A stretch of DNA of 64,000 nt from an uncultured Bartonella sp. (lineage in GTDB: Bacteria > Pseudomonadota > Alphaproteobacteria > Rhizobiales > Rhizobiaceae): NCBI GenBank assembly GCA_946478665.1, contig CAMLCZ010000002.1, positions 186,001 to 250,000 on the forward strand. Reading direction: 5' to 3'. Of this stretch, positions 3,365 through 62,168 are shown piece by piece. The notes below the pieces were generated by a model. The model ran no database searches. It was not told the DNA's origin and saw only the letters and a list, made by a program, of their open reading frames with translations. Position 1 is the stretch's first letter. Every line of letters starts with the position of its first letter. The position numbers and the translations under genes are program-made.

Positions 3365-4335
3365 ATTATATTCTGTTTTCTTGTTCTTTTTCTTAATTGT
3401 ATTGATATTTGAATATATAAGATATTTTTAAATTCTTCCGTAAATATTGAAAAAAATAAAATATATGTTGGATAGGTTTTATAATATAAATAATACGTGA
3501 TACGCATTTATTACTATTATTATAGATTTATTTTATCCATCGTGTAATTTTAAAAATATGATAGATCCTTATCAAAGGTGCGTAAGAAAATAGAATTTTC
3601 AAGTTCTGTTTAGCATTTACCAACGGTAGTTCGTTGCTATAAAATACAATAAATTTAAAACTATACTTTATAAAACTCACCCATAATATGAATTGAATTT
3701 CCCTAGTGGTTAAGATTAACCTATCTTCCAATATATAGTTTCTTACCTATGCTATTTTTTTAAATAACAGAAATCCGAGATTGCATCTAATATCCTTCAA
3801 AAAACGGCAATATCACAAAGTGACTCCAATTAAATACATTATCGAATACGCTTGAAATTGCGCCATTAATCAATGTGCCTAACTCTATTTGCCTGCGCTT
3901 GTCTGAAATTGTTTGATACTGCAAAGTCGGATTTATCCTCCCAATAAACTTAGCAGTTGGCAGTAATAAAGATAAGAAACGATCTTCCTCTCAACAATTA
4001 TTGCCATCCAGTTTAACGATTCCTTGCTTTGTTAAGCCGCTCTGGCGCCCTCCCGCTTTCTTCATAGCTCTATACGAATGGCGTATATTCATTGCGTTTA
4101 TCTATAGCTCAGTATTCATGCACTAAATGCGAACTCTATCTTCATACACTAAATGGGTTCTATCTTCATAAAATATGCTTAAGGTATTTTTTATTCAAAT
4201 CAGGTTGTTTTTTCGATCGTGAAAACAAAAACTGATTGAGTTTCCAACTCAAAGTAGCAAAAGACCTAACGCAAGAGACATTTGGATCAGATCATTCTTC
4301 TAAATCAAATCATTCTTCTAAATCAGGTCATTCTT
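3365..4335. other. Gene-poor AT-rich spacer
   Basis: No gene is supported; short frames here are AT-rich noise. 4085-4170 contains degenerate direct repeats ('cactaaatg' with 'tatcttcata'), and an 18-bp tandem array lies at the right end. Confidence 0.4.
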
Positions 4336-6704: not shown

Positions 6705-7710
6705 AAAGAAGCTATCAGCTAGACCATGACATAATCAGAGCGCGTCGCCAGACAAAGCGATATAATGCACGGAAACCACCTTTTCATGTGGAAAGGTAAG
6801 TGTTTTGGCTGGATTAAACTGCTCCAACACCAGCTCCTTGGCGTTATGGCGGACAAACATTTTGATGAAAGCTTGTGGCGCATTGGCGTATTCGTCAATC
6901 ATAATTTGCGCAACGACGAAATCACCCTTTTTAACGCGCCGTGTCGGGTCGCAATAAACGATCTCTCCATCGCGATAGCGTGGCCACATCGAATCCCCCG
7001 AAACCTCCACAGCATAGGCGTTATTCACTTCATAGAGTTGCGGTGGACATAAAACGTCAAATACAACATTTCCATTCAACTCGAATTCACCGTTAATGCC
7101 AGCAACAGCCTGACCAAAAACCGGCAAACGCCGCCCCTGATCGAAATTGACGCCACCAGCCAATTTGGCATTCGGTATATTGCCACGCTCGTTGCTATCG
7201 GTTTCAGAAAGAAGCTATCAGCTAGACCATGACATAATCAGAGCGCGTCTCCAGACAAAGCGATATAATGCACGGAAACCACCTTTTCATGCGGAAAGGT
7301 AAGTGTTTTGGCAGGATTAAACTGCTCCAACACCAGCTCCTTGGCATTATGGCGGACAAACATTTTGATAAAAGCTTGTGGTACATTGGCGTATTCATCA
7401 ATCATAATCTGCGCAACGACGAAATCACCTTTTTTAACGCGTCGTGTCGGGTCACAGTAAACGATCTCTCCATCGCGATAGCGTGGCCACATCGAATCCC
7501 CCGAAACTTCCACAGCATAGGCGTTATTCACCTCATAGAGCTGCGGTGGACATAAAACGTCAAATACAACATTTCCATTCAATTCAAATTCGCCATTAAT
7601 GCCAGCAACAGCCTGACCAAAAACTGGCAAGCGCCGACCTTGATCAAAATTGACACTGCCAGCCAATTTGGCATTCGGTATATTGCTACGCTCGTTGCTA
7701 TCGGCTTCAG
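6705..7710. repeat. 503-bp tandem duplication of the repressor 3' half
   Basis: 6705-7207 and 7208-7710 are near-identical direct copies, both starting at AAAGAAGCTATCAGCT. The right copy is the 3' half of the intact repressor gene. The left copy therefore encodes only the C-terminal peptidase domain. Confidence 0.9.
6735..7163 (-). CDS. Headless S24 peptidase: truncated copy of the prophage repressor
   Basis: 142 aa, almost identical to the C-terminal half of the neighbouring repressor but without the DNA-binding domain. It keeps the GDSMWP serine and the AFIKMF lysine of the LexA/CI autoprotease dyad and the dimerisation fold, ending in the same ALSGDAL. It arose by the 503-bp tandem duplication. 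Whether it is translated is uncertain: the ATG at 7163 has no strong ribosome site. If expressed it could form mixed dimers with the repressor. It could equally be a non-functional remnant. Confidence 0.6.
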   Translation of the reverse strand: MAGGVNFDQGRRLPVFGQAVAGINGEFELNGNVVFDVLCPPQLYEVNNAYAVEVSGDSMWPRYRDGEIVYCDPTRRVKKGDFVVAQIMIDEYANAPQAFIKMFVRHNAKELVLEQFNPAKTLTFPHEKVVSVHYIALSGDAL

Positions 7711-8119
7711 CAAAGCTGCCATGCGCCAAAACAGACCGCTTACCACCTTGATGAACCGTTGAACGAATAGGCCGCCAATTGTCTGTTGGAACACCATGCG
7801 CGCCCAACAATGCGCCCTTATTTGCCGCGTCATTTGTCGCGTCCTGATTAAACAGTTTGGCGCGAGCATCCGGTAAACTCAATGCCCATACTTCATCTGC
7901 CATAATTGGTGGGTTTCCACGGCCAATAAGAGCCCTAGCAATTTTTTGTGTCAAATCGACAGAAAAATAGTCTTTTGAAAATTCATTTTCGTTTTCGTAC
8001 CGTTGAATGCTTGATGCGCGCGCATAACCAAGCGCCCGCGCCATCTCGTCCATTGATAGGCCTGCACGTTCACGTAATTTACGCATTTGCAGTGTAACAG
8101 AAAACATATCACGTTCCAT
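7238..8119 (-). CDS. Prophage repressor, HTH plus S24 (LexA/CI-like) peptidase
   Basis: 293 aa. An XRE-type helix-turn-helix occupies about residues 10-45 ('LRERAGLSMDEMARALGY..SSIQRYE'), followed by a linker and an S24 peptidase fold. The self-cleavage dyad is S209 (GDSMW) and K252 (AFIKMF). Ala-Gly candidates for the scissile bond are A153-G154 and A172-G173. Such proteins hold the lytic promoters off and are inactivated by RecA-stimulated self-cleavage on DNA damage. An AAGGA ribosome site precedes the ATG at 8119. It is divergent from the early genes and its own -10 (TATAAT, 8148-8153) lies beside operator site 3, implying autoregulation. Confidence 0.92.
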   Translation of the reverse strand: MERDMFSVTLQMRKLRERAGLSMDEMARALGYARASSIQRYENENEFSKDYFSVDLTQKIARALIGRGNPPIMADEVWALSLPDARAKLFNQDATNDAANKGALLGAHGVPTDNWRPIRSTVHQGGKRSVLAHGSFAEADSNERSNIPNAKLAGSVNFDQGRRLPVFGQAVAGINGEFELNGNVVFDVLCPPQLYEVNNAYAVEVSGDSMWPRYRDGEIVYCDPTRRVKKGDFVVAQIMIDEYANVPQAFIKMFVRHNAKELVLEQFNPAKTLTFPHEKVVSVHYIALSGDAL

Positions 8120-10174: not shown

Positions 10175-11577
10175 AGCCCCTACCCGTTAATGCAATTGAG
10201 GCTGAACAAGCACTTTTGGGAGCCATTTTACTCGATAACAAACACTATCTTCAATTAAAGCCCAAGTTACAAGCGTTTCATTTTACCGACCCTTTTCATA
10301 AGCAATTATGGCAATGGATTGGTGATATGATTATTGATGGGCGCGATGCCACACCCATTACATTGAAACCCTTTGTGACCGATATACGGGTTGGTGAGCT
10401 AACAGCTTTTGCCTATCTTGTGAGATTGACAACACAAGCTGTTGGCAACAATCAATTACGTGGCTTGGCGCATACGATCTTTGATTGTGCAGCCCACAAC
10501 GCGCTTTTAAGCTTTATCACAGATGTGGAAACAACACTTGGACACGTAACGCCTGCGCAAAATGCCAGCAATATTTTTCAGGATGTTGAAAAAAATCTAT
10601 TTAATCTAAAACAGAATTTTTTCGACTGTGTTACTGAAAATTCTCATGAAGCGGCAATCGACCGCCTGATGTCCGCCTATCGTAATGAGGTAAAACGACC
10701 GTCCATTACGCTCCCCTTGAGTGAGCTTACCGATGTGCTTTCTGGCCCCTTGGAAGCTGGTAACCTTTATGGCCTATTGTCGTCATCAGGGGAAGGGAAA
10801 ACCTCATTGGCATTACAGATTATGGACTATGCTGCGAGACATGGCCATGAAGTTTTCTTTTTTTCTTACGACCAATCTGCTGAACAATGCCTAATGCAGA
10901 TAGCCAGTCAAAGGCTTGGACTTGCAACCCGTATTATTCGTGACAAATGCTTAAGCAAAAGGGATACCGAGCGCTATTTTGCTGAACTTATCAAGCTGCG
11001 CAAATTGCCATTACATATTATCAATTGTCACAATGAAACAATCTTTGATCTTGTTGCACGCTTGCGTGGCTATTTGTCAAAGAAAAGCACCCGTCCACCC
11101 CTGGTTGTTGTTGACCATGTGCGCAAAGTACCACCTTCTCTACCCAATAGCCATGAAGGGCGCATTGCGGCCGAAATTGGTGGGGCGGCAAAAGCAACTG
11201 CGCGTGAGAACCAGCTCGTTTGGCTTAATATCATGCAGCGTAAAAGCCTGCGCGAAACACGTGAAAACCCACACCCAAATGATAGCGATCTTTTTGGTGG
11301 CGAACAGGCAAAAGAAGATTATGACGCCCTTCTCTATCTTTATAGACCAGAGAAATATCGCGCTTATCGCCTTTCGCGAACCACCAATGTCAAACGGCGA
11401 GAAGCCATTTGCGACTATTTGCTGAAATGGTCTGGAAAGTCAAAACTTGGTGCTTTGAAAGTGCGTTTTGGTGACCCAACAATATGGCGCCCTTTGGTTT
11501 TTGAGGCCGATTACACACGCTATGCGTCATTCAATCCGACAGATCAACCAATCATTGAAGGGTTTTTGAACCAATGA
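10171..11577 (+). CDS. DnaB-like replicative helicase
   Basis: 468 aa. Residues 1-110 match the DnaB N-terminal domain ('NAIEAEQALLGAILLD', 'FHFTDPFHKQLW'). The RecA-like motor follows with Walker A SSSGEGKT at 204-211, a 'EVFFFSYDQS' strand and 'PLVVVDHVRK' as the Walker B region. It unwinds DNA at the phage replication fork. No primase, initiator or loader is visible nearby, so it probably recruits host DnaG and polymerase. It overlaps the upstream RuvC-like gene by 4 bases and the next gene by 4 bases. Confidence 0.9.
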   Translation: MKPLPVNAIEAEQALLGAILLDNKHYLQLKPKLQAFHFTDPFHKQLWQWIGDMIIDGRDATPITLKPFVTDIRVGELTAFAYLVRLTTQAVGNNQLRGLAHTIFDCAAHNALLSFITDVETTLGHVTPAQNASNIFQDVEKNLFNLKQNFFDCVTENSHEAAIDRLMSAYRNEVKRPSITLPLSELTDVLSGPLEAGNLYGLLSSSGEGKTSLALQIMDYAARHGHEVFFFSYDQSAEQCLMQIASQRLGLATRIIRDKCLSKRDTERYFAELIKLRKLPLHIINCHNETIFDLVARLRGYLSKKSTRPPLVVVDHVRKVPPSLPNSHEGRIAAEIGGAAKATARENQLVWLNIMQRKSLRETRENPHPNDSDLFGGEQAKEDYDALLYLYRPEKYRAYRLSRTTNVKRREAICDYLLKWSGKSKLGALKVRFGDPTIWRPLVFEADYTRYASFNPTDQPIIEGFLNQ

Positions 11578-26071: not shown

Positions 26072-28750
26072 ATGGCTTATTTTGACTCTATCATTTGCCT
26101 ATTCAAGCTAGATACCAAAGAGGCCGAAGCGTCTGCCAAGAAAATGGATGGCAGCTTAAAACAGCTTTTGAACACCGCCAGCAATGCTAGTGAAAAATCA
26201 GGAAATTTGGGGCAAAATCTGGTTTCATCATTTAACGCTGTTAGCTCAGCATTTAATAATATTGGTCAAAACATATCTGGAAGCTTTTCCCAAATAAAAT
26301 TGGAAGCCGATCAGGTATTCAGTCATATAAAAGAAGCCGGACAAAACACTGGAGATGCTATTGCCGGTTCAATCAAAAATTCATTTGATGAAATTAATAA
26401 AACCACCAATGAAAATTTGTTGAAGCAAAAATTGCGTGCTGCGGAGATTGCCAATAACGGAAAAAACAGCGCGATCAATGCCAATGGCATAGCACCCCAT
26501 ACAATTGACAAAACCAATATTGACCCCAAGCCGATTGAAGAAAATTTTCACAACAGCTTCAATAATATAACAAAAGAAGGGCAAGACACTGGCGAGGCTA
26601 TCGCCGGTTCAATTAAAAATTCGCTTGACCATATCAACAATATTTCCAACAACAATTTGTTGAAGCAAAAATTGCCTGACGTGAATATTTCACGCCCATC
26701 AATGACTGCCCCTCTCCCATCAGAAGCTATTCCTGCTGAGCCAAGTGTCACCAATAGCAAACACATGGCGCAAGAGGCCATCAGTGCGGTAAACGACACT
26801 TTCCGCCATAGTGTCAATGACATGGAAAATGAAACACGAAATGCGCTTGATGCAATCAAACAGCATACGGAAAACGCAAAACAAAGCATTCATGAACCAA
26901 AGTCAACATTGAGCCAAGCAACGCGCGTTAGTCCCTATCATACGAATAATATGACGCCTGCTATGCAACAAGCCGACAGTCTTGGCAAAGCTATGGCTGC
27001 ACCGATTGATGCCATGGGAAATATACTGATGGATCTCGGGACAGAGATCGGTCAAAGCATATCGCATATGAAAAACGCGACCACGAATGGCTTCAATGCA
27101 GTAAAACAGGCTGCAAATGAAACAGCCGTGTCTATCAGCAATTCATTTCTCGGTATCGTAGACAATGTTGCAACCACCATTGCTAGTGCAGCAAATAATA
27201 TCCATACATTTATTACAGATATCATAAAATCGTCCATTCCAAAGTTTAAGGCATCAGCTGATGCTCTTGGTAAAAACTTTGGACAGACTATTTCCGGTGC
27301 GATAAAAGGTGTTACGGACAAGTTTTCCTTTGACAGTATTTTTACGGGTGTTGAAAAACATGCGCAAAACCTTACTGCCCTTGGAGCTCTGGCATCACAA
27401 TCCAGAATTGGTGTGCGCAACCTTGATCTTTTATCACGCTCAGCTGCAAGTCTCGGTGGCAATCTGGGTGAAGCCCAGCAAGACATTAATCGCTTTTCTC
27501 AGTCTGTCACAACCGCATTAGGCGACAAAACCAGCCAAGCGGCAGCAATTTTTGATAAATTGGGAATTTCGCTGAAAAACCAAAAAGGCCGAATAAAAGA
27601 TACAAGCAAATTGATGGGCGAGTTATCGCATAAAATGCGAACGATGAGCCAACCCGATAAAAATTTGATGCTTAACGACCTTGGCTTCAAAGACCAGGGC
27701 ATGCACCGATATGTCATGTCGACCGACAAGACACAAAAACGCGTGATGGGCACAGAAAAAGAAAAGGGTATAACAACACAGAAAGATGTCGAAGAAGCAA
27801 AGAAATTTCAAAAATCTCTCACTGAATTGAATGAAGCCATTGATAGTGCCGCGACAGATCTTGTAACTGCACTGATGCCGGCGTTCACATTCATTGTTGA
27901 TGGCTTAAAAAGCCTTGTTACCGTTGCAAAAGACAACAAAATTATTTTGGTTGGCTTTTTTGCTGCTTTGGCTGTTGCTGCTGTCAGTTATGGAGCATCT
28001 ATGGAGTCTGCGGCTGTTGCAACAATAGCAGCCACATGGCCTATCTTGGCAATTATTGCTGTTGTTGGCGCACTTGGATATGCATTTTATAAACTCATTC
28101 CATTTCTCAAAAAAATCCCTCAACTCTTCCACGATTTTGTGGCGAGTAGCCCCATGGTGCAGTCTGCACTTAACAAACTTTCCGAAGCATGGGAGGAATT
28201 AAAAAAGAGAGCCCAACCGATTATCGATTATTTTAAAGCGGTATGGGGATTTGTAACAGCTGCCTGGAATGGCGACTTTGAAGGCATGAAAAAAAGCTTC
28301 TTTGATATGCTTAATGCCATTAAAGATTATTTTATAAATATTTTAAATGACATCAGTGACATTGCTACCAATATTACCAAAGCTATTCGTGATAAATTAA
28401 CACATATGTTACCGACCAAACTGCAATATTGGCTTGGTCTTAATGATGACAAAGAAAATGATATACCGACACCTGATGATGAGCAAAAACAAGCTGCTAC
28501 GAAAGCTGTAGAAGCCGGACAGCAACATCTGGATCAAGTTCAACAAAATGGTGTCCCCTCCAACGCAGTGGAAATTACCAAAACCAAAAATATTGAAAAT
28601 AATAAGCAAACAAATGTTACTGTGGGTGAAACACATATCACTGTAAACACCAACAAACCTGTCGAAGATATTGGTCAAAAACTAACTGATCGACAAACAT
28701 ATGAAATAAAAAAAGCAATTGCTGACACCGATGACTCTGTAATGCGCTAA
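26072..28750 (+). CDS. Tail tape measure protein
   Basis: 892 aa, the longest gene of the tail operon. Residues 1-430 are helical, Asn/Ser-rich, and contain a duplicated segment of about 81 residues ('IAGSIKNSFDEIN' and 'IAGSIKNSLDHIN'). A hydrophobic membrane-like region follows at about 620-680, with charged coiled-coil after it. The C-terminus 'HITVNTNKPVEDIGQKL' is a short beta-hairpin unit. It sets tail length and enters the host envelope on ejection. Its 3' end has been copied several times into the moron array that follows. Confidence 0.88.
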   Translation: MAYFDSIICLFKLDTKEAEASAKKMDGSLKQLLNTASNASEKSGNLGQNLVSSFNAVSSAFNNIGQNISGSFSQIKLEADQVFSHIKEAGQNTGDAIAGSIKNSFDEINKTTNENLLKQKLRAAEIANNGKNSAINANGIAPHTIDKTNIDPKPIEENFHNSFNNITKEGQDTGEAIAGSIKNSLDHINNISNNNLLKQKLPDVNISRPSMTAPLPSEAIPAEPSVTNSKHMAQEAISAVNDTFRHSVNDMENETRNALDAIKQHTENAKQSIHEPKSTLSQATRVSPYHTNNMTPAMQQADSLGKAMAAPIDAMGNILMDLGTEIGQSISHMKNATTNGFNAVKQAANETAVSISNSFLGIVDNVATTIASAANNIHTFITDIIKSSIPKFKASADALGKNFGQTISGAIKGVTDKFSFDSIFTGVEKHAQNLTALGALASQSRIGVRNLDLLSRSAASLGGNLGEAQQDINRFSQSVTTALGDKTSQAAAIFDKLGISLKNQKGRIKDTSKLMGELSHKMRTMSQPDKNLMLNDLGFKDQGMHRYVMSTDKTQKRVMGTEKEKGITTQKDVEEAKKFQKSLTELNEAIDSAATDLVTALMPAFTFIVDGLKSLVTVAKDNKIILVGFFAALAVAAVSYGASMESAAVATIAATWPILAIIAVVGALGYAFYKLIPFLKKIPQLFHDFVASSPMVQSALNKLSEAWEELKKRAQPIIDYFKAVWGFVTAAWNGDFEGMKKSFFDMLNAIKDYFINILNDISDIATNITKAIRDKLTHMLPTKLQYWLGLNDDKENDIPTPDDEQKQAATKAVEAGQQHLDQVQQNGVPSNAVEITKTKNIENNKQTNVTVGETHITVNTNKPVEDIGQKLTDRQTYEIKKAIADTDDSVMR

Positions 28751-28751
28751 C

Positions 28752-29531
28752 TTAGGGCAAATGATAAAAATCCTGCGATTGAAAATACGCGTCCCGGTAT
28801 TCTTTTACACCACTTAGCTTGCCATTATTGGGCAAGATAGGCTGATAATCGCATGAATCATATAATACCCATGAAAGACATGGTGAATTATCTGGTAAAT
28901 ATCTTGCTGCAAATTTATAGAAAAATAATTGTGCAGGTGCTGGTTTGTGACCATCCTTTGCTTTCATATATTGATCGATAACCTCGCCTTTTAAAAAACT
29001 ATTCGTTATTTTCTCAGCCTTCTTATTTTCGACAAAAAGGGACAACTCTTGAGGTACGCAATTAACACCTGTAGGGATAATATCGTCTTTCACACCTTGG
29101 CATACAAAGCCAACAACGTTCCCTTTTTTGTACGCTCCAGCTATATTTTTAAATTCATACATAAGGGATATATCCATATCCCCATGTTGGTCATTTGCAG
29201 TTAACAAATAAATATCAACATTATTAGCAATGGCGGAAACACTGATTACTTTTCCAGTAATTTCCAAAGGTTTTCCACCATACTGCTTTTCTGCTGCAAT
29301 ATTGTTTTCGCTGAAATCATCTGATATTTTTTGCGCTTTATATTTAGGAAGAGTAAAATCCTCAAGACCATTGAATGTAAAGAGAGCTTTATCTGTTTTG
29401 GCCAAATAAATCTGCATAGCCACAAATGCATTAATAGCTTTGAACTCTTTTTCTTCCAAACTCATCTTTGCTGAAGCAGTTGAAAAAGTTACCAAAGAAA
29501 CAATCACCGAGGTTATCAGGCTTTTAAACAT
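28752..29531 (-). CDS. Secreted OB-fold-like moron protein, subfamily A (copy A1)
   Basis: 259 aa from MFKSL (29531); the longer frame from 29552 adds only MQKWENV, which covers the ribosome site (GGGAG). Signal peptide: hydrophobic core then ASA, cleavage near residue 21. Residues 80-160 ('QYGGKPLEITGKVISVSAIANNV..GFVC') resemble tRNA_anti-like OB folds found in small secreted or lipoprotein domains. Four cysteines: C144, C158, and the PC-x8-C pair C218/C227, probably two disulfides. Ends in YHLP. The stop lies 1 base after the tape measure stop on the other strand. It runs against the late operon, so it is likely expressed in the lysogen. Function unknown. Confidence 0.75.
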   Translation of the reverse strand: MFKSLITSVIVSLVTFSTASAKMSLEEKEFKAINAFVAMQIYLAKTDKALFTFNGLEDFTLPKYKAQKISDDFSENNIAAEKQYGGKPLEITGKVISVSAIANNVDIYLLTANDQHGDMDISLMYEFKNIAGAYKKGNVVGFVCQGVKDDIIPTGVNCVPQELSLFVENKKAEKITNSFLKGEVIDQYMKAKDGHKPAPAQLFFYKFAARYLPDNSPCLSWVLYDSCDYQPILPNNGKLSGVKEYRDAYFQSQDFYHLP

Positions 29532-29700
29532 TACATTCTCCCATTTCTGCAAAATATGAAAAATTGTGATCTTTTTAGCAAGTCTTAAACAATAAAAATG
29601 TGTTTTATTAAACGTAATTGATCACAGTGAAATGTATAAATGATCTTCGATTTTTACGCGTAAGCTAAATAACCTGATAAAACCACGATGCAAAAAAGAA

Positions 29701-29847
29701 CGAACCAACTTTAAAATCGGTACACCAAACATTGTGGTTAATGCCCCCAGACACTCTGCTGACGAGCTAGAAAAAGCGACGAAAATCGCACAAGGGGCGT
29801 TCATCAGAAGCACGTTACAAGGTTTTGATGATTGCAGACAGAATTAA
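29701..29847 (+). pseudogene. 3' end of a different tape measure gene
   Basis: The frame translates as ...GTPNIVVNAPRHSADELEKATKIAQGAFIRSTLQGF... and stops at 29845-29847, overlapping the stop of the leftward B1 gene exactly as the real tape measure abuts A1. It resembles in layout, but not in sequence, the resident tape measure tail (I.VN...-ad-L...). No start is present. I infer a fragment carried in from another phage together with gene B1. Confidence 0.5.
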
Positions 29848-30629
29848 TCTTTCCACTTTTGATTAGGCAAATGAAACCTGTCCTTGTTAGCTTCATAGGT
29901 TTTTTTATAATCTTGTTTATCGAGATTTTCCTCAGATATATATTTATTTGAATAGCAGTGTTGAATATTTGAAAAATCAAAACATGGTGCATCATCAGGA
30001 AAGTATTTTGCCATATATACGTAATTAAATAAAACGAAAGCAATTGGTTCTGCTTTTTTGTTTTTTATTAAACCATCTAAAGAGCCGCCTGACATAAATG
30101 TATCAGCAATCTTTTTACCCTCTTTTTGAGCTTGTTCATTTGCTTTTTCAGCTACGCTACATTTTTTTAGCGTTGGTATAATTAAATTCTCTATACCACC
30201 GTCACAATTTAATAAGATATATTGACCTGAACGATAATCCGCTAATTCATCAGCAGAACTCATACCTAATTCAGCATTCAGCAAACTATGATTTTCTGCC
30301 GTTACGTTAAATTCTAATTTTATCGTTTTAGAATTTTGTTGTCCAATTTTATCTATCTTACCTGACACATAAATCTTTTTATCTTTGTACTCTTTATAAC
30401 CAGCTAATTCATTCTCGCCAAATAATGCTGTAATAGTGTCCACTGTAACAGGTTGTGTTAGAGATGGATAAATATAAAAACTACTATCACTCGTAAGATA
30501 ATCTACAATATCGACAGCAAGAAAGTTAGCTAAAAATTTACTTCCTTTTTCTTCATTCAAGCTCTGTGCTGAAGCAGTTGAAAAAGTTACCAAAGAAACA
30601 ATCACCGAGGTTATCAGGCTTTTAAACAT
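29844..30629 (-). CDS. Secreted OB-fold-like moron protein, subfamily B (copy B1)
   Basis: 261 aa from MFKSL. Its signal peptide and 5' leader are identical or nearly so to A1, but the mature body belongs to a different subfamily, so the two were joined by recombination. The middle segment 'YKDKKIYVSGKIDKIGQQNSKTIKLEF..YRSGQYILLNC' is the best OB-fold (tRNA_anti-like) match in the array. The cysteine plan is conserved: C-x14-C, then PC-x8-C, and an HLP motif followed by a 6-residue tail. Probably periplasmic or exported; role unknown. Confidence 0.75.
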   Translation of the reverse strand: MFKSLITSVIVSLVTFSTASAQSLNEEKGSKFLANFLAVDIVDYLTSDSSFYIYPSLTQPVTVDTITALFGENELAGYKEYKDKKIYVSGKIDKIGQQNSKTIKLEFNVTAENHSLLNAELGMSSADELADYRSGQYILLNCDGGIENLIIPTLKKCSVAEKANEQAQKEGKKIADTFMSGGSLDGLIKNKKAEPIAFVLFNYVYMAKYFPDDAPCFDFSNIQHCYSNKYISEENLDKQDYKKTYEANKDRFHLPNQKWKD

Positions 30630-30805
30630 TACATTCTCCCATTTTTGCAAAATATGAAAAATTGTGGTCTTTTTAGCAAGTCTTAAACAATAAAAATGTG
30701 TTGGAATAAACGTGATTGTTCACAATGAAATGTATAAATGATCTTCTATTTTTACACGAAACATACGTTAGGTCGTAAACCAAACGAGATACAATCAATG
30801 ACGAA

Positions 30806-30943
30806 CAAATGTTACTGGGGGGAGACACATATCACTGTAAACACCAACAAACCTGTAGAAGATATTGGTCAAAAACTAACTGATCAACAAACATATGAAA
30901 TAAAAAAGCAATTGCTGACACCGATGACTCTGTAATGAGTTAA
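30806..30943 (+). pseudogene. Degraded copy of the resident tape measure 3' end
   Basis: Reads GETHITVNTNKPVEDIGQKLTDQQTYEIKK as in the resident gene, then shifts frame after a single-base loss in the A-run so the ending is lost. It abuts gene A2 in the same convergent way. Confidence 0.8.
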
Positions 30944-30944
30944 T

Positions 30945-31724
30945 TTACGGCAAATGATAAAAATCTTGCGATTGAAAATACGCATCGCGATATTCTTTTA
31001 CTCCGCTTAGCTTGCCGTTATTGGGCAAGATAAGCCTATAATCACATGCATCATATAATACCCATGAAAGACATGGTGAATTATCTGGTAAATATCTTGC
31101 TGCAAATTTATAGAAAAATAATTGTGCAGGTGCTGGTTTGTGACCATCCTTTGCTTTCATATATTGATCGATAACCTCGCCTTTTAAAAAACTATTCGTT
31201 ATTTTCTCAGCCTTCTTATTTTCGACAAAAAGGGACAACTCTTGAGGTACGCAATTAACACCTGTAGGGATAATATCGTCTTTCACACCTTGGCATACAA
31301 AGCCAACAACGTTCCCTTTTTTGTACGCTCCAGCTATATTTTTAAATTCATACATAAGGGATATATCCATATCCCCATGTTGGTCATTTGCAGTTAACAA
31401 ATAAATATCAACATTATTAGCAATGGCGGAAACACTGATTACTTTTCCAGTAATTTCCAAAGGTTTTCCACCATACTGCTTTTCTGCTGCAATATTGTTT
31501 TCGCTGAAATCATCTGATATTTTTTGCGCTTTATATTTAGGAAGAGTAAAATCCTCAAGACCATTGAATGTAAAGAGAGCTTTATCTGTTTTGGCCAAAT
31601 AAATCTGCATAGCCACAAATGTATTAATAGCTTTGAACTCTTTTTCTTCCAAACTCATCTTTGCTGAAGCAGCTGAGAAAGTCACTAAAGAAACAATCAC
31701 CGAAGTTATCAAGCTTTTAAACAT
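30945..31724 (-). CDS. Secreted OB-fold-like moron protein, subfamily A (copy A2)
   Basis: 259 aa, nearly identical to A1, A3 and A4; it differs from A3 mainly near the C-terminus (YDACDYRLI against YDSCDYQPI) and from A1 by FSAASA in the signal peptide. All four cysteines and the YHLP end are kept. GGGAG lies 6 bases before the ATG. First member of the 1105-bp periodic block. Confidence 0.75.
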   Translation of the reverse strand: MFKSLITSVIVSLVTFSAASAKMSLEEKEFKAINTFVAMQIYLAKTDKALFTFNGLEDFTLPKYKAQKISDDFSENNIAAEKQYGGKPLEITGKVISVSAIANNVDIYLLTANDQHGDMDISLMYEFKNIAGAYKKGNVVGFVCQGVKDDIIPTGVNCVPQELSLFVENKKAEKITNSFLKGEVIDQYMKAKDGHKPAPAQLFFYKFAARYLPDNSPCLSWVLYDACDYRLILPNNGKLSGVKEYRDAYFQSQDFYHLP

Positions 31725-31809
31725 TACAATCTCCCATTTTTGTGAAATATGAAAAATTGTGGCTATTTTAGCAAGTCTTAAACAATAAAAATGTGTTTGA
31801 ATAAACGTA

Positions 31810-31821
31810 ATTGTTCACAAT
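31810..31821. promoter_or_regulatory. Conserved dyad upstream of A2
   Basis: ATTGT-TC-ACAAT, about 90 bases before the start codon. The same dyad lies ahead of B1 (30715-30726), A3 (32915-32926) and A4 (34020-34031), and in altered form ahead of A1 (29617-29628). Candidate operator; no convincing -35/-10 pair was assigned. Confidence 0.4.
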
Positions 31822-31909
31822 GAAATTGTATAAATGATCTTCTATTTTTATTCGAAATGTAAGTAGCCTGATAAACAAAACAAAAAACGACATACAACCA
31901 ATAACAAAC

Positions 31910-32048
31910 GAATGTTACTGTGGGTGAGGCACATATTACGTTGAATACCAACAAACCTGTCGAAGATATTGGTCAAAAACTAACTGATCGACAAACATAT
32001 GAAATAAAAAAAGCAATTGCTGACACCGATGACTCTGTAATGCGCTAA
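31910..32048 (+). pseudogene. Copy of the tape measure 3' end
   Basis: Keeps the reading frame NVTVGEAHITLNTNKPVED.. through to the natural stop 3 bases from gene A3. No start codon or ribosome site. Confidence 0.85.
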
Positions 32049-32049
32049 C

Positions 32050-32829
32050 TTAGGGCAAATGATAAAAATCCTGCGATTGAAAATACGCGTCCCGGTATTC
32101 TTTTACACCACTTAGCTTGCCATTATTGGGCAAGATAGGCTGATAATCGCATGAATCATATAATACCCATGAAAGACATGGTGAATTATCTGGTAAATAT
32201 CTTGCTGCAAATTTATAGAAAAATAATTGTGCAGGTGCTGGTTTGTGACCATCCTTTGCTTTCATATATTGATCGATAACCTCGCCTTTTAAAAAACTAT
32301 TCGTTATTTTCTCAGCCTTCTTATTTTCGACAAAAAGGGACAACTCTTGAGGTACGCAATTAACACCTGTAGGGATAATATCGTCTTTCACACCTTGGCA
32401 TACAAAGCCAACAACGTTCCCTTTTTTGTACGCTCCAGCTATATTTTTAAATTCATACATAAGGGATATATCCATATCCCCATGTTGGTCATTTGCAGTT
32501 AACAAATAAATATCAACATTATTAGCAATGGCGGAAACACTGATTACTTTTCCAGTAATTTCCAAAGGTTTTCCACCATACTGCTTTTCTGCTGCAATAT
32601 TGTTTTCGCTGAAATCATCTGATATTTTTTGCGCTTTATATTTAGGAAGAGTAAAATCCTCAAGACCATTGAATGTAAAGAGAGCTTTATCTGTTTTGGC
32701 CAAATAAATCTGCATAGCCACAAATGTATTAATAGCTTTGAACTCTTTTTCTTCCAAACTCATCTTTGCTGAAGCAGCTGAGAAAGTCACTAAAGAAACA
32801 ATCACCGAAGTTATCAAGCTTTTAAACAT
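32050..32829 (-). CDS. Secreted OB-fold-like moron protein, subfamily A (copy A3)
   Basis: 259 aa. The mature protein is the same as A1 apart from one residue near position 36 (A/V), and the signal peptide is that of A2. Leader and ribosome site are intact, so it is likely expressed. Being almost the same as A2 and A4, it argues for gene dosage rather than diversification in this part of the array. Confidence 0.75.
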   Translation of the reverse strand: MFKSLITSVIVSLVTFSAASAKMSLEEKEFKAINTFVAMQIYLAKTDKALFTFNGLEDFTLPKYKAQKISDDFSENNIAAEKQYGGKPLEITGKVISVSAIANNVDIYLLTANDQHGDMDISLMYEFKNIAGAYKKGNVVGFVCQGVKDDIIPTGVNCVPQELSLFVENKKAEKITNSFLKGEVIDQYMKAKDGHKPAPAQLFFYKFAARYLPDNSPCLSWVLYDSCDYQPILPNNGKLSGVKEYRDAYFQSQDFYHLP

Positions 32830-33014
32830 TACAATCTCCCATTTTTGTGAAATATGAAAAATTGTGGCTATTTTAGCAAGTCTTAAACAATAAAAATGTG
32901 TTTGAATAAACGTAATTGTTCACAATGAAATTGTATAAATGATCTTCTATTTTTATTCGAAATGTAAGTAGCCTGATAAACAAAACAAAAAACGACATAC
33001 AACCAATAACAAAC

Positions 33015-33153
33015 GAATGTTACTGTGGGTGAGGCACATATTACGTTGAATACCAACAAACCTGTCGAAGATATTGGTCAAAAACTAACTGATCGACAAA
33101 CATATGAAATAAAAAAAGCAATTGCTGACACCGATGACTCTGTAATGCGCTAA
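33015..33153 (+). pseudogene. Copy of the tape measure 3' end
   Basis: Same sequence as the copy one repeat unit to the left, again ending at the convergent stop of gene A4. Confidence 0.85.
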
Positions 33154-33154
33154 C

Positions 33155-33934
33155 TTAGGGCAAATGATAAAAATCCTGCGATTGAAAATACGCGTCCCGG
33201 TATTCTTTTACACCACTTAGCTTGCCATTATTGGGCAAGATAGGCTGATAATCGCATGAATCATATAATACCCATGAAAGACATGGTGAATTATCTGGTA
33301 AATATCTTGCTGCAAATTTATAGAAAAATAATTGTGCAGGTGCTGGTTTGTGACCATCCTTTGCTTTCATATATTGATCGATAACCTCGCCTTTTAAAAA
33401 ACTATTCGTTATTTTCTCAGCCTTCTTATTTTCGACAAAAAGGGACAACTCTTGAGGTACGCAATTAACACCTGTAGGGATAATATCGTCTTTCACACCT
33501 TGGCATACAAAGCCAACAACGTTCCCTTTTTTGTACGCTCCAGCTATATTTTTAAATTCATACATAAGGGATATATCCATATCCCCATGTTGGTCATTTG
33601 CAGTTAACAAATAAATATCAACATTATTAGCAATGGCGGAAACACTGATTACTTTTCCAGTAATTTCCAAAGGTTTTCCACCATACTGCTTTTCTGCTGC
33701 AATATTGTTTTCGCTGAAATCATCTGATATTTTTTGCGCTTTATATTTAGGAAGAGTAAAATCCTCAAGACCATTGAATGTAAAGAGAGCTTTATCTGTT
33801 TTGGCCAAATAAATCTGCATAGCCACAAATGTATTAATAGCTTTGAACTCTTTTTCTTCCAAACTCATCTTTGCTGAAGCAGATGAGAAAGTTACCAAAG
33901 AAACAATCACTGAGGTTATCAAGCGTTTAAACAT
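33155..33934 (-). CDS. Secreted OB-fold-like moron protein, subfamily A (copy A4)
   Basis: 259 aa. Differs from A3 in the signal peptide only (MFKRL..FSSASA); the mature protein looks identical. Upstream the tape-measure-derived DNA stops being present, so this is the outer edge of the homogeneous block. Confidence 0.75.
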   Translation of the reverse strand: MFKRLITSVIVSLVTFSSASAKMSLEEKEFKAINTFVAMQIYLAKTDKALFTFNGLEDFTLPKYKAQKISDDFSENNIAAEKQYGGKPLEITGKVISVSAIANNVDIYLLTANDQHGDMDISLMYEFKNIAGAYKKGNVVGFVCQGVKDDIIPTGVNCVPQELSLFVENKKAEKITNSFLKGEVIDQYMKAKDGHKPAPAQLFFYKFAARYLPDNSPCLSWVLYDSCDYQPILPNNGKLSGVKEYRDAYFQSQDFYHLP

Positions 33935-34234
33935 TACAATCTCCCATTTTGGCGAAATATGAAAAATTGTGGCCTTTTTAGCAAGTCTTAAACAATAAAA
34001 ATGTGTTTTATTAAACGTAATTGTTCACAATGAAATTGTATAAATGATCTTCTATTTTTATGCGAAATGTAAGTAGCCTGATAAACAAAACGAAATACGA
34101 AAATCAACAAATCTGTATTCTATTCCTTGCAACCAAAGCTTTACGATGGCGATTATAGTCAGATATACATTCATGGACTGTAAAAACTGTTCAATTGGTA
34201 GAGCAATTTCCAGTAAGTGTTTCCGTGCAACTGC

Positions 34235-35014
34235 TTATGGTAGATGGTAGAAATCTTTCGAGCGTTTGTAATCTTCCAGATAATCGTTCAAGCTGTCCAA
34301 GTTTCCCTTGTTTGGTAGAATTGCGCTGTAATCGCATTGTTTAAATGTTTCCCACGATAGGCATGGCGAATTATCTGGCAGATATTTTGCTGCATATTTA
34401 TAATAGAACAGCTTTCCAGCAGCGTTTTTATTGGTTCCTTTGATAGCAATATAATTCTCAATATTTTTTCCGGCTAAAAATGCCTTGGTAATTTTTTCTG
34501 CTTGTTGTTCGGCCTCTGTCATAGAGCGTTCAACGAGAATACAATCCGATGCAAATGGAATATCCTCATGCAAATCAATTTTGCAATCGAGATCAATTCG
34601 GTCATCAAGGGATAAGGTATTTTCCACGTCTCTAAAATTATCATTGACGATAGCGTAAAACTCATCATTTCTGCCCACATCACTGTCTGCGATAATTTTT
34701 AAAGAAGAGCTGTTTTTCTCAAGTCTTACAACGGTGACATGCACGCTCCACCGTGAATTTAGATATTGCTTTTTGGCCTTGAAAAAGTTCGTTCTAAAAT
34801 CCGACATCAATGTCCATGATGAAATTTGTTTAAGGTGACTTTCGGCAAGATTGGAGAATATGAATTCGGATTTTTCATCAGCATTTTGCTTTATTTGAAG
34901 GGCTAAATATGTGTTAATTGCCTTAAATTCTTTTTCCGATAAACTCATGTCAGCAAGCGCCGGAAAGACAGTGACCAAAAATGATATAAAAGGTATTACA
35001 AGGCGTTTTAACAT
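34235..35014 (-). CDS. Secreted OB-fold-like moron protein, diverged subfamily A (copy A5)
   Basis: 259 aa with its own signal peptide (MLKRLVIPFISFLVTVFPALA). The first mature residues MSLSEKEFKAIN and the last 60 (AAKYLPDNSPCLSWETFKQCDY..KDFYHLP) are close to A1-A4, while residues 45-150 are strongly diverged. C-x13-C and PC-x8-C are kept. The centre of the protein evolves fastest, as expected for a binding face; that reading is inference. Confidence 0.72.
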   Translation of the reverse strand: MLKRLVIPFISFLVTVFPALADMSLSEKEFKAINTYLALQIKQNADEKSEFIFSNLAESHLKQISSWTLMSDFRTNFFKAKKQYLNSRWSVHVTVVRLEKNSSSLKIIADSDVGRNDEFYAIVNDNFRDVENTLSLDDRIDLDCKIDLHEDIPFASDCILVERSMTEAEQQAEKITKAFLAGKNIENYIAIKGTNKNAAGKLFYYKYAAKYLPDNSPCLSWETFKQCDYSAILPNKGNLDSLNDYLEDYKRSKDFYHLP

Positions 35015-35307
35015 TTCAATTCTCTGAAAAATCCACGGCTTAAAAATCTATAATGCTTTTAAATATGGCATTTTCGCTTGCGCTATCATGTATATTGTCA
35101 TCAGCGCAATCAAGTATAATAAATTAAACCGACGAATAAAACAGCAGAATTGCCTATCAAGCTTATCGCTAAAGACAATTCTGCTAATCTAACTCTATAG
35201 CATTACCCTTTTTTACTTTAGTAGATCAATAAAGTAACAGAATATATGCTTCACCCAACACTTAGTCTTTTCAGTTAAGAGCCAAACTAACTAGATAGAG
35301 AAAGCGT

Positions 35308-36093
35308 TTATTTGTTCCAATTGTAATCTGGCAAATGATATTTTTCTTTTCCCGATTGATAAGATTCGCTGAAGCCCTTACTCATAAGAAGTGATTTGTT
35401 AATGTATTTGCTGGAATCGCATTTAACAAACGTATCGAAATTCAAACAAGGTGAATCGTCTGGCATTTTTGCTGCTGCATATTTTGATGCAAACAAATAG
35501 ACTGACAATGGTATATCATCATTGCTTTTTACCATGTCATCTATCGAGCTGCCCGAAAGGAACGTCTGGGCAATATATTCACCAGTTTTCTGAGCAATTT
35601 TTGTAACTGGCGGTGCAACAGTACAACGTTTCAACGTTGGGTGCTCTTCTCTTACAATACCACCACCACATGTTAACGAAATTGGTTGTCCAACGTGATA
35701 TTCTGCTATCTGATCTGAAGAAATCATGTCGAAATTAGCCAATAAAACCACGTCCTCAACATGTGGTGTTATAAAGGCCAACTCTATAGTGTTGGGGCCA
35801 GATTGGCGAATTTTTCCAACGACACCTGCAACATAGAGATTTTGATCTTTATATTTTTTATAAGCTGCAATTTCGTTATCTCCGAATTCAGCAGCAACAG
35901 CTTCTGCGTTGATCGGTCGGGAAACCGTTAAAAATTGATAGGTATTCTGGCTACCCATAAGATAGCTAACCGCAGATGCTGATAGAAAAGTGCTGAGATA
36001 CTTGCGTTCTTTATCTTCAACGCTCATCTGGGCAGAAGCCGAGGTCATTGTCACGGTTAAAGCTGTTGCCAATATTAATAAGCGTTTTAGCAT
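35308..36093 (-). CDS. Secreted OB-fold-like moron protein, subfamily B (copy B2)
   Basis: 261 aa, signal peptide MLKRLLIL..SASA, related to B1 over the whole length ('YKDQNLYVAGVVGKIRQSGPNTIELAF', 'PTLKRC', 'MPDDSPCLNFDTFVKCD', 'YHLPDYNWNK'). It is transcribed away from the baseplate genes, from a leader at 36094-36422 without the ATTGT-ACAAT dyad. It may represent the oldest member, since neither it nor A5 has a tape measure fragment beside it. Confidence 0.72.
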   Translation of the reverse strand: MLKRLLILATALTVTMTSASAQMSVEDKERKYLSTFLSASAVSYLMGSQNTYQFLTVSRPINAEAVAAEFGDNEIAAYKKYKDQNLYVAGVVGKIRQSGPNTIELAFITPHVEDVVLLANFDMISSDQIAEYHVGQPISLTCGGGIVREEHPTLKRCTVAPPVTKIAQKTGEYIAQTFLSGSSIDDMVKSNDDIPLSVYLFASKYAAAKMPDDSPCLNFDTFVKCDSSKYINKSLLMSKGFSESYQSGKEKYHLPDYNWNK

Positions 36094-36422: not shown

Positions 36423-36995
36423 ATGTCGAATTTTATTGCTCGGCTTGAGCAAGCTGCTATTGCGCTTGTTGGCCCAACTTCGGCTGCCGATAGGGTTTTT
36501 ATTATGGAAAGCGATGGCATTAGCCAATGTTTTCCTCATGCAAGACCGTTAAACCTTAAGGTAAACGATCAGGCACGTATGCCACAACACACTTTGGAAG
36601 ATGGTTCGACTATTACCGATCATCTGGTTATTGACCCTATTTCAATAGAAATCCAGATGATTTTTATCAAAGACTTCCGCGATACACACGCAGAAATGCG
36701 TGCAGCTTACGAAGAAGGTCGTTTGCTTACCATTCAGACAAAAACGCACACTTACCCCAATATGGTGATAACCGCCCTACCGCATGAAGAAACAACCGAT
36801 TATTGGGATGTTATTGCCGTAAGTTTAAAGCTAGAGGAAGCGCGCTTTGTATCACCCGAACAAGGTAGTTTAAGTCAATCCGATGTCGGCAATACCTCTG
36901 ATACGTCAACAATCAAACGTGGTTCTCTACAATCCATGTCAACTGGCTCTCACGCACAAACAAAAGCAAAAGAAGCCTATCAAAACTTCATTTAA
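36423..36995 (+). CDS. Dit-like baseplate protein
   Basis: 190 aa. 'HTLEDGSTITDHLVIDPISIEIQMIF' and 'LTIQTKTHTYPNMVITALPHEETTDYWDVIAVSLKLEEARFV' match the Dit-like N-terminal domain of phage baseplate hub proteins; the C-terminal 40 residues are Ser/Thr-rich. It normally follows the tape measure gene directly, so the moron array is an insertion at this boundary. Confidence 0.75.
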   Translation: MSNFIARLEQAAIALVGPTSAADRVFIMESDGISQCFPHARPLNLKVNDQARMPQHTLEDGSTITDHLVIDPISIEIQMIFIKDFRDTHAEMRAAYEEGRLLTIQTKTHTYPNMVITALPHEETTDYWDVIAVSLKLEEARFVSPEQGSLSQSDVGNTSDTSTIKRGSLQSMSTGSHAQTKAKEAYQNFI

Positions 36996-59139: not shown

Positions 59140-62100
59140 TTAATGAACAACTTCCATCAGCTTGTCATAACTATCGACAACATCATATTTGACTTGATCA
59201 GACGTGATGTTAGTAAAAAATTTTCTTGCACAATCGATTTTAGCTTTTTCGACAGCACGCAGTTCCATGGATGACATTGAACCTTTGGTCTCTGCAACAA
59301 AATAGATATGTTTGACCGTTCCTTCCTTGAAGGCAATTGCCCAATCGGGGTTATAATTTCCTACAGGCGTTGGAATGAAAAAACCATTTGGCAATTTTGC
59401 GTATACAACCACTTCATCTGCCTTATCAAGTTTTTCGACAAATTTGCGCTCATTGTTAGAATCAGTGAAGACATAGTCATAAACATGCCGGTCGGCCTTA
59501 TAGGCCTTGGCAAAGTCATACTGCCTTTTGTCTTGGGTGAAGATGTTGCTTTCAAATGTTTCATCGAGCGGATCGTAGGTAAGATTCTCAACAATCATAA
59601 TTGCTTTTTGCTCGTTGATCAAACGAATGCTTTTCGCAATAAAATCTTCAGGGTTGGTTCTGAACTGGCTGAAAACAGCTTTGTTCATATTCTTTAAAAT
59701 CATGGTAATGGTTTTACGTTTCAGATTTGTCGCCTCGGCAATTTTGCCTATTAGATCATATTTGACAAATGAATGGATCGAGCCTTTATCAATTACTGTC
59801 TTATTACCAGATATTTCAAAGGCCTCGCCTTTTTGCAAATTTTCATAACTGGTATTGTTACTCTGGCTGCCTGTAACAATATGATATTGCAGAGGACTAA
59901 CCTTTAATTCTTTATCGAGAGCCTTAACAGCATTTTCAATCAATTCTTCTGTTTGGAAATCCACCATATAAACAGCCTTGCGATTGATCTTGCCCCAAAG
60001 CGCTCGAAATTCCTTTTTATTAAAGTTATCGTTTAAAGGGTTAGTTCTAGTTTTGCGGTCGTCATCGGCAACTTTGAGTGCATTGAGATCAAAGACGCTG
60101 TTGACCAGCTTGAATATTTCTTCGCCCATGTTAGCCAACTCTGGTGGCAAATCAGCTAAAGCATTTTCCTTAGAAGCTTGGTGGTAAACAGGAGAAATAC
60201 TATCATTATCATCAATATAGTCATTCTCCCGAAGATAGAGATAAATCCGTCGCGCCATTTGCAGCGTGACCGTTACATTTCCAGTTTCAAGTTGTAATAT
60301 CTTGCCAGTGAAATAGTCTTCATCAGCTTTTTGTGGGCGTGCAGACAGGCTTTCAGTGATGTCGCTCTGCAACCCTTTAACAAATTGTTCATAGCTCTCG
60401 CTGGCAACAACGGTGAGCACATTAACATCATGCACGATTGCAGCATCGTCCACACGGTCGCCATGTTTATCAACGCTTAAGCGTAAGCCACGGCCAACTT
60501 CCTGTCGGCGAGAGGTTGTGTTGTCGCTATGTTTCAACGCACAAATGGTAAAGATATTCGGGTTGTCCCAACCTTCACGCAAAGCCGAATGTGAAAAGAT
60601 AAAGCGTGTTGGTTCTTCAAAAGACAAAAGCCGCTTCTTGTCTTTCAAAATCAGGTCATAGGCATCGACATCATCTGATTCACCGTCTCTTTTTATTTCG
60701 GAATCGACAGATTGCTTTGTTTTTTTATCAATCGAAAAATAGCCATTATGGGTGCGCTCGACCTTAATATTATCGAGGTATTGCCGATAATCGGGATCAG
60801 GTAGAAACCCTTCCCGGTTCAGGCGTGCCAAATATTCTTCTTCAAAGATTTTGGCATAATCACCCTTTTGGGCGCCACTTTCATCATAAAGGCGATATTT
60901 GGCAACCTCATCAATGAAGAACAGCGACAATGTCTTGATGCCGCGCTTGAAATTTTGCGCCTCGCGCTCGAAATGCGCGTCAATCGCCTCTCTTATCTGG
61001 ATGCGCCGCAACATGGTTTCATTAACATCACCAGTGGCCTCGCCCGCTTCTATTTCTATACCATTGATAAAGCTGACCTTGTTAGTGTGCGCATCAATAT
61101 CGGCAATGACAAAGCCCTTATATTGGTCAAGCTCATTCGAAAATGAAAATAGATCATCATTCTTGCCGAATTTGCGGGTAATGCGCTTGATGCCAGAAGC
61201 CTGTTTCACCTCAAACTCAATACGGGCTTGCGGAGCGGCTTTGGAAATCTCGATGGATTGTAGATAAAGATAAGCATTGGTGCCGCTTAACCCTTTAACG
61301 GTTATGCCCCGCACGGATATTTTCTTGACCAGCTTTTGTTGATAAGCATCCAAAGCATCAAGCCGGTAAATCTTGTTATGCTCTTTCTTATGCGTCGCTG
61401 AATAGCGCAGGACCATCATGGGGCAGAAATCAGCCAAGGAATCTAGCGTCTTCGCTCCTTCCATCTTTTGCGGCTCATCCAATATCATGATCGGTCGATT
61501 GGCGCTGATCACATCAATCGGCTTACGTGACTGGAATTCATCCAGCTCCATACGAATGCGTCGAGCATCCTTACCCTTGGCATTAAATGCCTGCACATTG
61601 ATAATCAAGACATTGATGCCGGCATCAGAAGAAAAACTTTCTAGTTGTGACAGGTTTTTAGAATTATAGATAAAAACCCGTGCCTTTTTGCCATATTCCA
61701 TCAGGAAATGCTCAGCCATCAAATCAAAAGATTGAAAGACACCTTCGCGAATGGCAATGCTTGGTACCACAACAATGAATTTATTCCAGCCATAAAGTTT
61801 GTTCATTTCGAACATAGTGCGGATATAGCAATAGGTTTTGCCGGTGCCAGTTTCCATCTCGATATCAAGATTGACAGGTGCAATCTTGTCTTTGGAGAGT
61901 ACTGGGGAAGCTGTGAGATTTTGCCGTTTTTGCACATCGTTTACGTTTTTCAGCAAGGCAATATCGTCAAGCCGTAGATCATTGTTCTTAAAGCCAACAA
62001 TCTCAATGTCAGCCTGTTGCTGACCTTTTTCATCAATCCGCTTGCCCGTGTCTATCCGATATTTCAAACCACTGTCAAAAGGCTGGCCTGCAAAACAATC

Positions 62101-62157
62101 GGTAACGGCCTGCACAGCATCAAGCTGATAGGACTGTTTCTTAAATTTAATCTGCAT
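59140..62157 (-). CDS. res: Type III restriction enzyme, Res subunit
   Basis: 1005 aa from the ATG at 62157 (a GTG precedes it). Superfamily 2 helicase motifs: Walker A ETGTGKT near 103-109, DEPQ near 228, 'GRGLRL' as motif VI. The C-terminal PD-(D/E)xK nuclease is visible as 'NPDWAIAF...YFVAETKG'. With Mod it forms the complex that cleaves DNA between two inverted unmodified sites, using ATP to communicate along DNA. It follows mod by 11 bases in one operon. Confidence 0.92.
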   Translation of the reverse strand: MQIKFKKQSYQLDAVQAVTDCFAGQPFDSGLKYRIDTGKRIDEKGQQQADIEIVGFKNNDLRLDDIALLKNVNDVQKRQNLTASPVLSKDKIAPVNLDIEMETGTGKTYCYIRTMFEMNKLYGWNKFIVVVPSIAIREGVFQSFDLMAEHFLMEYGKKARVFIYNSKNLSQLESFSSDAGINVLIINVQAFNAKGKDARRIRMELDEFQSRKPIDVISANRPIMILDEPQKMEGAKTLDSLADFCPMMVLRYSATHKKEHNKIYRLDALDAYQQKLVKKISVRGITVKGLSGTNAYLYLQSIEISKAAPQARIEFEVKQASGIKRITRKFGKNDDLFSFSNELDQYKGFVIADIDAHTNKVSFINGIEIEAGEATGDVNETMLRRIQIREAIDAHFEREAQNFKRGIKTLSLFFIDEVAKYRLYDESGAQKGDYAKIFEEEYLARLNREGFLPDPDYRQYLDNIKVERTHNGYFSIDKKTKQSVDSEIKRDGESDDVDAYDLILKDKKRLLSFEEPTRFIFSHSALREGWDNPNIFTICALKHSDNTTSRRQEVGRGLRLSVDKHGDRVDDAAIVHDVNVLTVVASESYEQFVKGLQSDITESLSARPQKADEDYFTGKILQLETGNVTVTLQMARRIYLYLRENDYIDDNDSISPVYHQASKENALADLPPELANMGEEIFKLVNSVFDLNALKVADDDRKTRTNPLNDNFNKKEFRALWGKINRKAVYMVDFQTEELIENAVKALDKELKVSPLQYHIVTGSQSNNTSYENLQKGEAFEISGNKTVIDKGSIHSFVKYDLIGKIAEATNLKRKTITMILKNMNKAVFSQFRTNPEDFIAKSIRLINEQKAIMIVENLTYDPLDETFESNIFTQDKRQYDFAKAYKADRHVYDYVFTDSNNERKFVEKLDKADEVVVYAKLPNGFFIPTPVGNYNPDWAIAFKEGTVKHIYFVAETKGSMSSMELRAVEKAKIDCARKFFTNITSDQVKYDVVDSYDKLMEVVH

Positions 62158-62168
62158 CACTGACCCCG

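Follow-up and report, generated by a model that had tools for sequence, protein, structure and literature searches.

In a 64,000-nucleotide stretch of an uncultured Bartonella sp. (contig CAMLCZ010000002.1, positions 186,001 to 250,000; here called the window), part of a genome of 2.31 Mb in 17 contigs, we found a temperate prophage with a contractile tail, carrying genes for a repressor, terminase, portal, sheath, tape measure, baseplate hub and wedge, and endolysin. Its tail operon is split at the stop of the tape-measure protein (TMP) gene by an array of seven intact minus-strand genes (28752-36093), which encode exported-looking proteins with an oligonucleotide/oligosaccharide-binding (OB) fold. 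The original prediction that these leftward genes separate two normally adjacent tail genes is confirmed: in 120 related viral loci, the gene downstream of TMP could be identified in 99, and in 98 of these it starts within 60 nt of the TMP stop. The sole exception is locus L050, where the two are 314 nt apart. Not every locus counts as independent, since seven pairs have identical stretches of 2 kb in common.

What escaped the original prediction, and is the main point of the locus, is the link of the array genes to the tape-measure tail. All five TMP-proximal array genes have a TMP C-terminus downstream, on the TMP strand; the tail after A1 is TMP's own end, and those after B1, A2, A3 and A4 are orphan copies. 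The tails are of two types, A, ending in DDSVMR (with a variant in one phage), and B, ending in GFDDCRQN. Orphan tails begin at about TNVTVG and end at a stop beside that of the array gene. The features are, from left to right:

26072..28750, plus strand: TMP gene, 892 amino acids, matching the PHROG tape-measure family phrog_8125 (7.2e-19)
28628..28750, plus strand: live TMP tail, A type, lying after TNVTVG; this is the part of TMP subject to copying and exchange
28752..29531, minus strand: A1, 259 amino acids, exported-looking OB-fold (Sie-like) protein, adjoining the live TMP tail
29701..29847, plus strand: orphan TMP tail, B type, ending in GFDDCRQN
29844..30629, minus strand: B1, 261 amino acids, structure model with a mean predicted local distance difference test score (pLDDT) of 83.9
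30800..30943 (limits approximate), plus strand: orphan TMP tail, A type, frame broken, beside A2
30945..31724, minus strand: A2, 259 amino acids
31905..32048, plus strand: orphan TMP tail, A type, open
32050..32829, minus strand: A3, 259 amino acids, structure model with a mean pLDDT of 87.4
33010..33153, plus strand: orphan TMP tail, A type, open
33155..33934, minus strand: A4, 259 amino acids
34235..35014, minus strand: A5, 259 amino acids, no recognisable tail downstream, same place in three prophages
35308..36093, minus strand: B2, 261 amino acids, no recognisable tail downstream, same place in three prophages
36423..36995, plus strand: next tail gene, directly 3' of the TMP gene in relatives

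We compared the arrays of three prophages, those of G000 (the genome of the window), G006 and G008; contig ends interrupt the G006 array, and of its seven matches two are partial. A class A gene is accompanied by an A tail and a class B gene by a B tail in all 12 units having a recognisable tail, one of which (G006 j0) has a partial gene. Seven orphans tested against the TMP tails of their own class gave z values of 21 to 43, compared with 1.9 to 6.6 against the other-class tails of the same three prophages and 6.8 to 11.1 against the tail of a further Bartonella prophage, G003. A TMP tail could be defined in 104 tail-module loci (99 viral loci, the window, G008, one G006 contig, G003 and locus L107), and extra tail copies were found in 3 of these, the three Bartonella arrays. 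A search of the phage collection with the A-type tail gave no match at E values up to 1.

The TMPs of the three prophages are alike over most of their length and most divergent at the end, with internal gaps and weaker stretches also present in that of G008. Over the last 600 nt of the TMP body they are 92-99.7% identical, and the tail and adjoining gene are replaced. Between G000 and G006 the TMP genes are 99.5% identical over 600 nt and 64% identical over the last 75 nt. Between G000 and G008 the identity is 92% over the last 600 nt of the TMP body, 94% over the signal-peptide DNA and 84% over the upstream 150 nt, with different tails and adjacent genes whose proteins are about 30% identical. 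Within the window, the leader and upstream region are common to A1-A4 and B1, and the mature proteins differ between A and B; A5 and B2 have upstream regions unlike those of the other five. The exchanged unit is the TMP tail plus the mature part of the gene. All three arrays keep the distal pair A5-B2 in place at 88-94% identity, and the TMP-proximal unit is different in each, a pattern that fits growth of the array at its TMP end.

The array proteins have, by eye, an N-terminal hydrophobic stretch with an AxA site and look exported; besides the OB domain they carry an extra helical C-terminal domain with two cysteines. A1-A4 are mutually 98-99% identical, and A3 and A4 are near-identical units of 1105 bp, so that their copy number calls for long reads. 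Degradation of the genes in related lysogens, named with the original prediction as a ground for refuting it, was not seen: the copies are intact, and dN/dS values of 0.07-0.33 (18 array-gene pairs computed) indicate purifying selection on the compared pairs. The orientation of the array against the late operon would fit expression in the lysogen. A consensus promoter scan returned 18 sites against a shuffle mean of 34.0, fewer than in the shuffles, and thus does not demonstrate promoters. We considered the palindrome ATTGTGAACAAT as a shared operator: it occurs exactly at 30715, 31810, 32915 and 34020 (minus strand), upstream of B1, A2, A3 and A4, with no fifth exact match in the window and one place with one mismatch, inside the sheath gene. 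All four exact matches lie at array genes, none of this ties the palindrome to the repressor, and we did not retain it as an operator.

A search of five of the seven array proteins against Pfam placed all five in PF12869 (tRNA_anti-like OB domain) above the curated cut-off. Of four proteins scanned against phrog_8545 ("superinfection exclusion Sie-like"), A1 (1.9e-8), B1 (8.5e-5) and B2 (0.0041) matched. Both families are shared with orf2 of Lactococcus phage Tuc2009 (phrog_8545, 1.7e-79; PF12869, 3.5e-11), a gene annotated as superinfection exclusion Sie-like and placed between integrase and repressor, which, from this annotation, we take to be Sie2009. A direct BLASTP comparison aligned A3 with Sie2009 over 34 residues (E 6e-6, single comparison). 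These family memberships and this alignment make superinfection exclusion the best supported of the roles originally listed. VipE and other Pfam families were near-misses, all under their cut-offs, and four of four array proteins had no match in PADLOC (E up to 1) or NCBIfam (E up to 0.01).

Members of the family were found in 7 of 71 Bartonella genomes, beside TMP in G000, G006, G008 and G003 and as a single copy in G014, G065 and G082, where the neighborhoods are by eye without phage genes. A TMP search of 61 Bartonella genomes was positive in four, the same four that carry the exclusion-like gene. Among 398 genomes of the phylum, phrog_8545 was found in five, our own included, and the matches in G629, G463 and G590 look chromosomal; phrog_13333 was found in our own genome only among 297 genomes of the order. 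The G003 prophage (L028 4891-11529) looks decayed, with a short open reading frame (ORF) before the tail genes, an in-frame stop in the gene after TMP and a short hub ORF, and its exclusion-like gene is intact. In G014 (L027 8461-9240, 9301-9560, 11416-14694) the solo member adjoins four CRISPR-like repeats, a repeat for which the 18-kb G065 and G082 stretches gave no match, and a 1092-aa ORF further on looks like Cas9.

Outside Bartonella, a hidden Markov model (HMM) of the exclusion-like family, made from 11 seeds and run on 121 loci of the same tail module, matched four: L107 (itself a seed), L109 (near-identical to L107, 228/236 positions, stop included), L110 and L111. All four matches lie immediately 5' of TMP, after the preceding gene, three with the operon and that of L111 antisense. 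No family member was found by the HMM in the other 117 loci, some of which are short (91 of the 99 viral loci with a definable TMP reach at least 1 kb past it). Viral-contig scans using the array proteins returned no relatives; as the HMM found three members in viral contigs reached via a tail gene, those scans were not sensitive. In relatives, the position immediately 5' of TMP serves as a second place of insertion: in L111 it holds a small OB-like gene (3766-4173) and in L112 another antisense ORF (10295-10798). Separately, orf1 of Haemophilus phages S2 and HP2 matched the L107 member at 7e-10, and the S2 record reads "Specific for S2 phage ..."; orf1 is a possible exclusion gene.

Exclusion at genome injection has several precedents; for these, and for the cassette layout discussed below, we draw on PMC3952083, PMC13190303, PMC10883804, PMC7693887 and PMC4927057. 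Sie2009, which is likewise prophage-borne and of the same Pfam and PHROG OB family, belongs to a system reported to prevent DNA injection. It differs from the array proteins in its 173 aa and hydrophobic N-terminus, where the array proteins have a cleavable-looking signal peptide, and in being a single gene in the integrase-repressor interval rather than one of several arrayed with TMP tails in a tail operon; a position in the lysogeny module is customary, not definitive. Ltp of Streptococcus phage TP-J34 is also an exported exclusion protein, a lipoprotein, and its published target is the C-terminal end region of a TMP (PMC3952083). Its domain is PF07553 (7.8e-34 for TP-J34 Ltp), not PF12869, and PF07553 is not listed for any of the five scanned array proteins at E values up to 10, most weak matches having been filtered out. 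A fusion of OB and Ltp domains, prompted by a BFVD match named "Host cell surface-exposed lipoprotein" (352 aa), is unproved; the Ltp genes in three phage stretches encode fewer than 200 aa, which by length alone we judged too short for both domains. HK97 hybrids whose tail-tube and TMP genes have been swapped for others are reported to escape exclusion by gp15, and exclusion by TP-J34 and HK97 is overcome by TMP alteration or by other tail-tube/TMP genes (PMC10883804). SNIPE likewise defends at genome injection with TMP contact (PMC13190303); it is a membrane-bound nuclease, whereas no nuclease domain is listed for the five array proteins scanned.

Family membership, the Ltp, HK97 and SNIPE precedents and the co-exchange of tail and gene together make exclusion at the TMP tip the best reading of the locus. 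We propose that the lysogen makes periplasmic Sie2009-like OB-fold exclusion proteins, which would block genome injection by an arriving phage, most likely by engaging the C-terminal tip of its TMP. The moving unit is a TMP tail with its convergent, putative exclusion gene, exchanged between constant flanks, the TMP body on one side and the signal peptide with its upstream region on the other. A new unit placed at TMP would push the old one downstream as an orphan, whose tail would decay and whose gene would be kept, so that the lysogen would exclude phages bearing past and present tails. The decay of orphan tails next to intact genes argues that the genes are being retained, and against tails being stored for future use. 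Taken whole, with injection as the step, the TMP tip as the target and old cassettes kept for their genes, we hold this proposal tentatively, at slightly short of an even chance.

Several findings weigh against it. A5 had no phrog_8545 match, and Sie2009 is without the C-terminal domain that the array proteins have. The precedents themselves are at some distance: Ltp was studied on a lactococcal phage (PMC3952083), and the known exclusion cases are said to concern long non-contractile tails (PMC10883804), unlike the sheathed tail of the Bartonella phage. The targets of these precedents are unrelated phages: for Sie2009 the reported protection is against certain skunaviruses, the effect within its own P335 group being limited, so that the family is not known for excluding a phage's own kind. 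Excluding mostly unrelated phages fits a general injection block better than exclusion of the phage's own tail type. Members of the family are also not bound to the TMP stop: one lies antisense elsewhere in the tail operon of Klebsiella phage ST405-OXA48phi1.2, one match lies outside the tail genes of a Bordetella phage, and that of Tuc2009 lies in the lysogeny module. A5 and B2, with their four counterparts, make six units in which no tail is recognisable. In G003, a single unit, the last residues of the live tail look B-like, and the tail is near neither class (distances of 0.62-0.69 to A and 0.57-0.78 to B). Finally, physical linkage alone would suffice for the class pairing of tail and gene, and a pairing at finer scale is not supported: B1 and g1B proteins are 97% identical with tails 49% different, and tail distance correlated with C-domain distance at r -0.24 among four B units and 0.60 among five A units, the B result being the adverse one. 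This leaves three readings: the proteins recognise a conserved tail segment, the tail varies as a form of escape, or tail and protein make no contact.

Much of this is what would be expected if exclusion genes or other morons were inserted at the TMP stop and the tails were passive scars, carried along because recombination breakpoints fall within the TMP 3' end, with no interaction between tail and protein. Under such hitchhiking the adjacency of tail and gene would yield the class pairing by linkage, B units need show no fine-scale agreement, and orphan tails would decay, as seen in the broken tail of A2 and the missing ones of A5 and B2. The acceptance of an antisense non-family ORF 5' of TMP in L112 and the mainly unrelated targets of Sie2009 point the same way. 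Against it, the TMPs of otherwise near-identical phages vary far more at their extreme end than elsewhere, which calls for selection or targeted exchange, and the family matches elsewhere in the tail module also flank TMP, in four of four cases among the 121 loci. We regard hitchhiking as doubtful but a genuine possibility.

The co-exchange with the TMP tail is also compatible with the proteins being periplasmic partners or immunity proteins for the phage's own tail rather than agents of entry exclusion as such, for example TMP chaperones or proteins shielding sister cells from tail particles, and a layout resembling that of contact-dependent growth inhibition (CDI) and Rhs loci (PMC4927057) would suit such a role. 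The tail works without array proteins in most relatives, to judge by the 101 of 104 tail-module loci that have no extra tail and the 117 of 121 that have no family member by HMM, some of these being short, and membership in the Sie2009 family points to exclusion; we consider this unlikely and have dropped a structural tail role as the leading interpretation. A lysogenic conversion factor that alters the envelope or acts on an insect host, amplified for dosage, would be in keeping with the solo members in three Bartonella species with no phage genes nearby by eye and with the 98-99% identity of A1-A4, but it is very improbable, as no effector family scored above cut-off in the five proteins scanned and as it would account neither for the exchange with TMP tails nor for the position beside TMP elsewhere. 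Of the interpretation first offered, the superinfection-exclusion part is supported by family membership, and we found nothing in support of a secreted factor acting on a eukaryotic host.

Returning to exclusion at the TMP tip, the array as a whole recalls the orphan cdiA-CT/cdiI and rhs-CT modules, in which a long gene with an exchangeable C-terminus has a partner gene, and beyond these comes a tandem row of displaced C-terminal fragments accompanied by partner genes (PMC4927057). We find such tandem displaced fragments with partner genes here, with two distal genes lacking a recognisable fragment. The differences are that the parent gene is a phage tape measure and the partner an OB protein, that the fragments lie on the parent strand with the partner genes on the opposite strand, and that no toxin domain was seen in the TMP tails, no search aimed at toxin domains having been made. 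For CDI loci, both retention for immunity and a silent reserve have been proposed (PMC4927057). It is conceivable, if far from assured, that the TMP tip and the exported exclusion protein together make up an exchangeable specificity unit of a Rhs/CDI-like kind, and that displaced units accumulate in the array as a growing record, their exclusion genes guarding the lysogen against several types of entry at once. What is new is that exclusion-like genes are linked, in the manner of orphan cassettes, to the tip of the tape measure; we found no description of such an array in the literature searched, a limited library.

Two observations concern the remainder of the window. In the repressor region (6735-7163 and 7238-8119, minus strand) the C-terminal 142 residues of the repressor are repeated just downstream as a separate ORF, 139/142 identical, which reads as a recent partial duplication. 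To the right of the prophage, 59140-62160 (minus strand) matches a type III restriction endonuclease model at 1.4e-121, under the curated cut-off.

If our proposal is true, phages would own an orphan-cassette system for entry and exclusion, as is known for polymorphic toxins, and the sequence would point to the partner for testing: the final ~40 residues of the tape measure. Recognition of an incoming injection apparatus by exclusion proteins would become testable with natural variants. It would also account for the ability of a temperate phage to switch entry specificity and still shield its host from its former kind, and the array may record past changes in virus entry and in the lock-out of rivals.

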